Of a stretch of 64,000 nt of DNA, positions 8,682 through 39,061 are shown one piece after another. Numbering within the stretch: position 1 is the stretch's first letter; every line of letters begins with the position of its first letter. The stretch comes from Candidatus Nitrosotalea sinensis (GTDB taxonomy: Archaea; Thermoproteota; Nitrososphaeria; Nitrososphaerales; Nitrosopumilaceae). The translations under genes and the position numbers were made by a program. The DNA lies in assembly GCF_900143675.1 (NCBI RefSeq), contig NZ_FRFC01000001.1, forward strand, positions 1 through 64,000, in the 5' to 3' direction. The notes beneath the pieces were generated by a model. The model worked only from the letters and a program-made list of their open reading frames with translations. It had not been told where the DNA came from and ran no database searches.

Positions 8682-8779
8682 CGCCGGGAGAGAGATTTGA
8701 ACTCTCGAACCCTTGCGAGTACGCGCTTTATGGTAATGAATTTCCAGGCGCGCGCCCTACCAGGCTAGGCGACCCCGGC
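8682..8779 (-). tRNA. tRNA-Ser (GGA) with a 14-nt anticodon-loop intron
   Basis: Acceptor stem 8773-8779 pairs with 8683-8689 (one G.U). The T arm is GAGAG-TTCAAAT-CTCTC. A long variable arm (ACTC-GCAA-GGGT, about 8710-8721) marks it as a class II tRNA. The anticodon stem is CGCGC (8748-8752) with GCGCG (8722-8726). These stems enclose 21 nt, so about 14 nt (roughly 8728-8741) must be an intron at the canonical 37/38 site. The anticodon GGA is at 8743-8745, and TGG in the loop can pair with CCA in the intron, as in a bulge-helix-bulge splice site. CCA is not encoded. Mature length about 84 nt. Confidence 0.88.
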
Positions 8780-37981: not shown

Positions 37982-38302
37982 ATGTTGGAAGAGAAGGGAA
38001 AATACGCATCTGCTACCCAAAATAGAAGATTTGTTTGGGAGAAAGTTATGTGGCCGTTAATTTTGCAATTAAACACAACTACTTTTACCACAGGACAATA
38101 CAAAGAAAGACGTGATCAAGTTTGCAAAGAACTTGACATACCATCATCTAAAATTGCAGGAGGCTTTGTGTCACTATTGTTAAAGGGAATTTTGTATAAA
38201 GAAAATGATCTTTACTCAATTCATTACAGATTGATTCCATATATGAGACTTGGAGCAAATTGTGATTATGCCACTGCAGTAAGAGAGGCCAGTACAAAAT
38301 AA
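37982..38302 (+). CDS. Hypothetical, possibly winged-helix protein, 106 aa
   Basis: Start ATG at 37982 (TTG at 37976 would add two residues). Helical chain with a basic middle (GQYKERRDQVCKELDIPSSK) and a hydrophobic GGFVSLLLKGILYKEN followed by a YSIHYRLI strand, reminiscent of a winged helix. The promoter must lie in the 37-bp divergent gap before it. No family recognised. Confidence 0.6.
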   Translation: MLEEKGKYASATQNRRFVWEKVMWPLILQLNTTTFTTGQYKERRDQVCKELDIPSSKIAGGFVSLLLKGILYKENDLYSIHYRLIPYMRLGANCDYATAVREASTK

Positions 38303-38333
38303 TATATTCTCAAGAAATACAAGTCGTCTCGGT

Positions 38334-38436
38334 AGCCCGATAGTCTAGTGGCCAAACAATTTTGGGTTAGGGATCTCAGGCTCTGGATCTTACGAGAGGA
38401 CACCTGGGGACGGCAGTTCGAATCTGCCTCGGGCTA
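38334..38436 (+). tRNA. tRNA-Gln (CTG) with an anticodon-loop intron and a probable second intron in the D-loop
   Basis: Acceptor stem 38334-38340 pairs with 38429-38435, discriminator A at 38436, T arm GGCAG-TTCGAAT-CTGCC. Anticodon stem TCAGG (38376-38380) with CCTGG (38403-38407). The enclosed 22 nt include anticodon CTG (38383-38385) and a 15-nt intron (about 38387-38401) whose AGAG pairs with CTCT of the loop. The D stem GTCT/GGAT encloses 24 nt, some 15 more than normal, with an inverted repeat CCAAA/TTTGG (38352-38365). Removing both insertions from 103 nt leaves about 73, a normal tRNA. CCA is not encoded. Confidence 0.85.
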
Positions 38437-38461: not shown

Positions 38462-39061
38462 TTATCGTGAAGCCATTGCAATTCTTTCTAATTCATTTTT
38501 CTTCTTGACAGAAGGAGCATTCATGTCATTTGCAGACGCAAGTATGAGATGCTCTGCAAGATTTTCTTCAACTGCTTTTGGATTAGAAAATGATGCATCC
38601 CTTACACCTTCAGCAATGAATCGTAATGCCAAGTCAACTCGCCTAAGAGGTGCAACATCTACTGAAACGTGATAGACAGTTCCACCATAAACTATTCTTG
38701 TTGTGTCTTCATTTGGAGCAGAATTTTCTACTGCTCGTATCAAGACCTCAACTGGATTTTTACCAGTTTTCAAATAAATGATATCAAAAGCAGCCTTGAC
38801 CGTATTTATTGCACGAATTTTCTTGCCTCCCATTCTTCCTGTGTTCTTGGCATATTTTTTTCCAAAGTGAGATAATTTGTTAACTAGTCTTTCTGCAATG
38901 TTTATCTCTGCTTTATTGAATCTTTTAAGAGCAGATCTGCCAAATGACATGGGCATTATTTCTTGTTTAAGTGAGATTACGTTTTTCAGGCCTGGGTCTT
39001 TGATATCAATATTTGAGATATCCCATTTTCTAAATAATAATAGATTTTGTGTCTCAGTCAT
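38462..39061 (-). CDS. rps7: Small ribosomal subunit protein uS7
   Basis: 199 aa. Signatures: GKKYAKNTGRMGGKKIRAI, NPVEVLIRAVENSAPNEDT and the VAPLRRVDLALRFIAEG helix. Nucleates the 30S head. Last gene of the minus-strand rpo-str run, 5 bp after uS12. Does not continue into EF-2 or EF-1A here; the tRNA-Gln gene follows on the other strand. Confidence 0.96.
   Translation of the reverse strand: MTETQNLLLFRKWDISNIDIKDPGLKNVISLKQEIMPMSFGRSALKRFNKAEINIAERLVNKLSHFGKKYAKNTGRMGGKKIRAINTVKAAFDIIYLKTGKNPVEVLIRAVENSAPNEDTTRIVYGGTVYHVSVDVAPLRRVDLALRFIAEGVRDASFSNPKAVEENLAEHLILASANDMNAPSVKKKNELERIAMASR

Follow-up and report, generated by a model that had tools for sequence, protein, structure and literature searches.

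Positions 38334-38436 on the forward strand of the window (the whole 64,000-nt stretch of the Candidatus Nitrosotalea sinensis genome that was analysed) hold the gene for tRNA-Gln(CUG), the isoacceptor for CAG codons, which is interrupted by two inserts of 15 nt each, one in the anticodon loop and one in the D-loop. We are highly confident that this is a functional gene whose inserts are two protein-spliced archaeal introns, and comparison of the sequences makes it very probable that the D-loop insert is spliced out as an intron. The Rfam tRNA model (RF00005) matches exactly 38334-38436 (+) with 38.2 bits, compared with a gathering score of 29, and a search of the organism's own genome (1.6 Mb, 99.9% complete) returns 43 tRNA matches at E <= 1, including this gene. 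The gene is not listed by a whole-window Rfam scan with fast filters, and ARAGORN detects it neither in the window nor on the unspliced gene alone. When only the anticodon-loop intron is removed, ARAGORN miscalls the gene as Pro(agg). Upon removal of both inserts, the remaining 73 nt are called as Gln(ctg), which recovers the normal tRNA claimed in the initial annotation, and the insert-less orthologues described below share its sequence form. Direct reading reveals that the cloverleaf is complete apart from the two inserts, and the features are as follows.

38298-38308, forward strand: TATA-like box AATAATATATT, approximately 26-36 nt upstream of the gene (by-eye reading of related loci).
38334-38355, forward strand: exon 1, with the acceptor 5' strand, the D-stem 5' strand and the D-loop AGTGGCCAA (direct reading, Rfam).
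38350-38353, forward strand: exon strand GGCC of the central splicing helix (positions 18, 19, 20 and 20a), pairing with 38365-38368.
38356-38370, forward strand: non-canonical D-loop intron ACAATTTTGGGTTAG at position 21/22; 11 of 77 syntenic orthologues lack exactly this stretch.
38365-38368, forward strand: intron strand GGTT of the central splicing helix (pairing analysis).
38371-38386, forward strand: exon 2, with the D-stem 3' strand GGAT, position 26, the anticodon stem 5' strand and the loop with CTG (direct reading, Rfam).
38387-38401, forward strand: canonical anticodon-loop intron ATCTTACGAGAGGAC at position 37/38 (direct reading, orthologues, ARAGORN).
38402-38436, forward strand: exon 3, with A38, the anticodon stem 3' strand, the variable loop, the T-arm, the acceptor 3' strand and the discriminator A (direct reading, Rfam).
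Acceptor stem, forward strand: AGCCCGA/TCGGGCT (direct reading).
D-stem, forward strand: GTCT 38343-38346 with GGAT 38371-38374 (direct reading).
Stretch between the D-arms, forward strand: 24 nt, 38347-38370 (direct reading).
Anticodon stem, forward strand: TCAGG/CCTGG, with the anticodon CTG (glutamine) at 38383-38385 (direct reading).
T-arm, forward strand: GGCAG-TTCGAAT-CTGCC (direct reading).

The excess of about 15 nt in the D-loop that was noted in the initial annotation is apparent from these 24 nt. The upstream element AATAATATATT is one that we take to be of the TATA-like box type, and a AATNATTATATTCT / AATAATATATTCTC-like sequence is seen by eye at the same distance in nearly all distinct related upstream stretches, AATTTTATATCC being one of the variants. 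The tail-to-tail neighbour of the tRNA gene is uS7 (38462-39061, reverse strand), and a search of genome contigs with this uS7 gives Candidatus Nitrosotalea and Thaumarchaeota MAGs as the nearest relatives. The second glutamine tRNA of the genome (UUG, L013) is intronless.

The 38387-38401 intron is located one base 3' of the anticodon, the canonical place, unlike the D-loop intron at 38356-38370. The junction of this 37/38 intron can slide by one A with an unchanged product, and three of its four central-helix pairs form, with one C-A mismatch (read by hand). A brute-force search for introns with perfect four-pair helices missed the two-intron solution of the window due to this mismatch.

The position of the D-loop intron is revealed by the relatives. 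Among 80 named uS7 loci, 79 yielded a tRNA by a loose script and 77 match the form of the tRNA-Gln(CUG) gene; the others are L173 (a different, intronless CTG gene), L183 (no tRNA) and L189 (D-loop insert, anticodon arm missing). The comparison with the tRNA-Gln of relatives, suggested in the initial annotation, shows a D-loop insert of 15-22 nt in 66 of the 77 syntenic orthologues beside uS7, and the other 11 lack exactly that insert. All 11 read AGYGGTCAA-GGAT, a form also read in the intronless Gln gene L104, and all 11 keep the intron in the anticodon loop. This exact absence places the intron of the window at 38356-38370, between A21 and G22. Given the 21/22 junction, CCAA remains in the mature D-loop AGTGGCCAA; the junction slides within TCAA in lineages with ...GATCAAGG, and no sliding is possible in the window. 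ARAGORN provides no test of the junction, as it calls Gln for a 15-nt removal at every offset tried, from 38343 to 38368.

Within the Nitrosotalea genus, a 131-base query finds the gene in 34 of 36 other genomes, with one copy truncated where its contig stops. All 34 show the D-loop insert (35 of 35 when the genome of the window is included), which indicates that it is no chance feature of one assembly, and the inserts of the genus loci L060-L062 are 15 nt long. In the remaining two genomes, G005 (84% complete) and G016 (70%), the query matched the UUG gene only.

The pairing was evaluated for each distinct intron, with exon bases G18-G19-Y20-C20a set against intron bases -3 to -6 and the inner hairpin read from +2. 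In the loci-derived set, all four central pairs form in 32 of 32 distinct introns, compared with 1.2% of shuffled introns, and at least two inner pairs form in 30 of 32 (a 2-nt loop being allowed); the corresponding value for shuffled introns is 0.23%. This set leaves out 33 of the 151 loci from L044 on, which do not match the pattern (other genes, forms of other families, TTG genes, L072, L173, L183 and L189). For the window's own intron, the central helix appears in 1.5% of shuffles, or in 0.4% when two inner pairs are also required; two of its four central pairs are G-U, and a third inner pair would require a 2-nt loop.

A wider set of 64 distinct introns (13-25 nt) combines the loci-derived set with rows from the family and order pattern searches. 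Four central pairs, with AA/N and AN/G bulges, are present in 63 of the 64, the exception being G255. The individual central pairs are found in 64/64, 63/64, 63/64 and 64/64 introns, and the inner pairs in 63/64, 56/58 and 35/46. In total, 408 of 424 cells are paired, whereas 2000 dealings average 350 and do not exceed 366; this comparison ignores relatedness and is to be read as support, not as a probability. Compensatory changes are observed between Y20 and -5 (C-G, U-A or U-G, with one C-A) and between +2 and -7 (C-G or U-A, with one G-A and one U-G), and the inner stem reaches seven pairs in two GC-rich introns. All 32 introns of the loci-derived set have A at base -2 and place no constraint on base -1, a pattern that a bulge would be expected to show. 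No outer helix of the kind that completes a bulge-helix-bulge (BHB) is evident in these introns, and the motif is therefore termed a relaxed BHB, following the terminology of PMC6379350. Separately, a D-loop insert of 11 nt from a genome of 0.8 Mb (G085:C48:15542-15580), excluded from the 64-intron set, lacks inner pairs, forms three of the four central ones and is possibly a minimal or decaying intron.

The gene, the junctions placed by comparison, the conserved pairing and the presence of the enzymes are all read from sequence, and from them we infer cleavage, ligation and the order of events. In the precursor, the 3' part of the intron, GGUU (38365-38368), would pair with G18-G19-C20-C20a (38350-38353), and the cleavage bulges AA/A (38354-38356) and AG/G (38369-38371), cut at the stroke, would lie around a small inner hairpin, forming a relaxed BHB of the HBh' type. 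A heteromeric splicing endonuclease would cut both bulges and RtcB would ligate A21 to G22; removal of the 37/38 intron by the same enzymes would yield the 73-nt tRNA.

The genome encodes two PF01974 splicing-endonuclease genes. The nearest solved archaeal EndA chains of the 177-aa subunit are 2cv8 (2.8e-44) and 3p1z_B (A. pernix EndA, 2.1e-43), and this subunit has Y116, H124 and K155, presumably the catalytic triad. The second subunit (189 aa) also matches EndA chains, and its active-site stretch RVYERGQFGEKGTRY is without histidine, which suggests that it is probably a structural subunit. K35 and K37 of the 177-aa subunit align with A. pernix K44 and R46, and PMC6379350 and PMC12397907 tie the loop lysine K44, in a crenarchaea-specific loop, to relaxed-motif cleavage. 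Additionally, alpha2beta2 splicing enzymes are assigned to Thaumarchaeota in PMC4090602. The gene content also includes RtcB ligase (589 bits), in addition to an endonuclease predicted to take relaxed motifs.

In the initial annotation, CCAAA/TTTGG was proposed to pair in the D-loop. These bases can pair, and the minimum-energy fold of the window's precursor contains their hairpin rather than the splicing helix, which would suit an insert that persists after maturation and enlarges the D-loop by a small hairpin of its own. However, CCAAA/TTTGG is not the conserved helix: its five pairs are complete in 11 of 64 introns (216 of 320 cells), whereas 63 of 64 form the full splicing helix, and the conserved pairing is that of the exon GGYC with intron bases -6 to -3. 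Retention is also opposed by the orthologues without precisely the insert and by the occupation, in the conserved pairing, of G18 and G19, which are needed for the D-loop/T-loop contact; we consider it very unlikely. The same hairpin could suggest a D-loop intron with other borders, for example CCAAACAATTTTGGG, the removal of which likewise leaves 73 nt that ARAGORN calls as Gln. Such borders would leave AGTGGTTAG, in conflict with the form read in the 11 insert-less orthologues and L104, and are highly improbable.

A decaying pseudogene that carries the inserts as relics is extremely unlikely. One relative, L072, which probably stems from the same genome as L189, has lost the anticodon arm, and the UUG tRNA may read CAG by wobble; however, all stems pair, many genera preserve the exons and the upstream TATA-like box, the intron pairing covaries, and the intron-bearing gene occurs in 19 of the 22 genera sampled. 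A tRNA-Gln gene with two introns, one of them in the D-loop, as first proposed in the initial annotation, is the best reading in light of the exact absence of the insert in 11 of 77 orthologues and the 63 of 64 splicing helices. As for L072 (G015:C61) and L189 (JAJPEA010000019.1), a 14-nt deletion flanked by two GGATCT repeats removes the anticodon from the Gln(CUG) gene, and an RF00005 search of G015 finds one gene of 89 nt at the L072 place; the deletion represents either an assembly collapse or a dead gene.

The distribution was examined with family and order patterns that required GGATNC and missed the window type GGATCT, so that the counts understate the Nitrosotalea genus: in the family sample, the intron form (exact pattern) is present in 72 of 121 genomes and 19 of 22 genera, and the form without the D-loop intron (one mismatch allowed) in 14 genomes, all from genus g31. 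Three further g31 genomes with the intron (G258, G275 and G284) appear in the order sample. In a uS12/uS7 DNA tree of 77 rows (77 of 80 loci kept; L173, L183 and L189 skipped), the 11 intron-less rows belong to a single supported group (99/96) that comprises 12 rows and whose named members are Nitrosopumilus and Marine Group I. At least two changes in intron presence are needed on the tree, and 0 of 500 label shuffles are as low. Either a single loss with a single regain or repeated losses would account for the pattern. The intron-bearing row inside the otherwise intron-less group is L176 (Nitrosopumilus sp. HKST02), for which a MAG error or recombination is possible.

Beyond the family, 21/22 introns of 13-24 nt are found in f4, f7, f8, f12, f13, f14 and f15, which makes eight families with f1. 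In f2 and f3, the Gln(CUG) intron lies instead at 24/25 and forms a CAAG/CTTG helix; TTG genes of several families also have a 24/25 intron (14 loci listed). The strict order-wide pattern matches in 56 of 201 genomes, six of which are the 24/25 form read across. In other families, the glutamine tRNA genes L096, L099, L107 and L110 appear to carry, in addition to the 24/25 intron, another insert close to where the D-stem begins, and some of them seemingly have three introns.

These sequences indicate that the D-loop intron is old in the group and was cleanly lost in some marine members. The presence of the 37/38 intron in all 11 intron-less orthologues argues against a loss via fully spliced tRNA, if it occurred in a single step. 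In intron-bearing relatives from g31 and its neighbours, the junctions carry a TCAA direct repeat through which DNA slippage could remove the intron exactly, a hypothesis that concerns few events. A joint reading, which we regard as rather unlikely, is that the D-loop intron is kept as a folding checkpoint and is lost by one-step slippage at TCAA. Pairing of the intron with G18 and G19 would block the D-loop/T-loop contact until excision, so that only spliced precursors would mature, and a chance exon change that made the central helix GGUC/GAUC would also have created the TCAA repeat. Slippage at this repeat would explain why the observed losses fall in the GGUC/GAUC background and why the 37/38 intron is spared.

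Other tRNA genes of the genome also appear to be interrupted. The window contains a tRNA-Ser(GGA) with an anticodon-loop intron at 8682-8779 on the reverse strand (Rfam 39.9 bits, ARAGORN intron 14 nt). A tRNA-Glu(UUC) at L043 (C3:321650-321830, reverse strand) has a 17-nt T-loop insert, recovered by the brute-force perfect-helix search, that fits a 59/60 BHB intron, with four central and two inner pairs and an ARAGORN Glu(ttc) call after removal. Two low-scoring loci look like tRNA-Arg(CCU) (L040, C3:118600-118760, reverse strand) and tRNA-Asp(GUC) (L042, C3:300100-300280, forward strand), each with a D-arm insert; the brute-force perfect-helix search fixed no junctions for either, and no other Asp gene is found among the assigned tRNA matches of the genome. 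Additionally, L041 (C3:395400-395580, reverse strand) is a weak tRNA match (21.4 bits) in which the anticodon loop is TGG-like and an acceptor stem is not clearly seen, and is either a further disrupted tRNA or a relic.

Introns outside 37/38 were described in the initial annotation as known from such archaea, in agreement with what the literature reports for Thaumarchaeota (PMC8450103) and Crenarchaeota. The tRNAscan-SE 2.0 paper gives 107 non-canonical introns in its thaumarchaeal genomes and a phylum-specific intron model (PMC8450103), and PMC3218864 also mentions Thaumarchaeota in connection with such introns. The thaumarchaeal introns come from the same phylum and are very probably the same kind of object as the D-loop intron, although the main text of PMC8450103, as far as it was available, names neither a tRNA-Gln nor a D-loop case. 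Among the paper listings searched, none names a D-loop intron in a thaumarchaeal tRNA-Gln. The corresponding gene of Ca. Nitrosotalea devanaterra (L120), whose D-loop intron is identical to the one in the window, may have been annotated before. In the Thermoproteales and other Crenarchaeota, the reviews PMC4090602, PMC6379350 and PMC4033280 likewise describe introns outside 37/38, including the D-loop and several per gene, with relaxed BHB motifs cut by an alpha-beta heterotetramer; the positions given in PMC4090602 include 20/21, 22/23 and 25/26, followed by 'etc.'. In contrast to these cases, the intron described here sits at 21/22 and belongs to a mesophilic ammonia oxidiser, and it is a trait of a single isoacceptor that is stable across the order. 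The second intron of the tRNA-Gln(CUG) gene is a canonical 37/38 archaeal tRNA intron, whereas the central helix of the D-loop intron uses bases of the D-loop rather than the anticodon loop.

Non-canonical thaumarchaeal tRNA introns are thus already published, and the tRNA-Gln(CUG) case is perhaps already annotated; less expected are the 21/22 introns in eight families, the 24/25 introns in others and the loss in the Nitrosopumilus clade. The comparison rescues a tRNA gene that is missed by bacterial-mode finders. Because the D-loop intron occupies bases of a tertiary contact, its removal may gate folding. Furthermore, one isoacceptor in one order presents a natural series, with an intron at 21/22, an intron at 24/25 or no D-arm intron, which offers a way to study the gain, movement and loss of tRNA introns.
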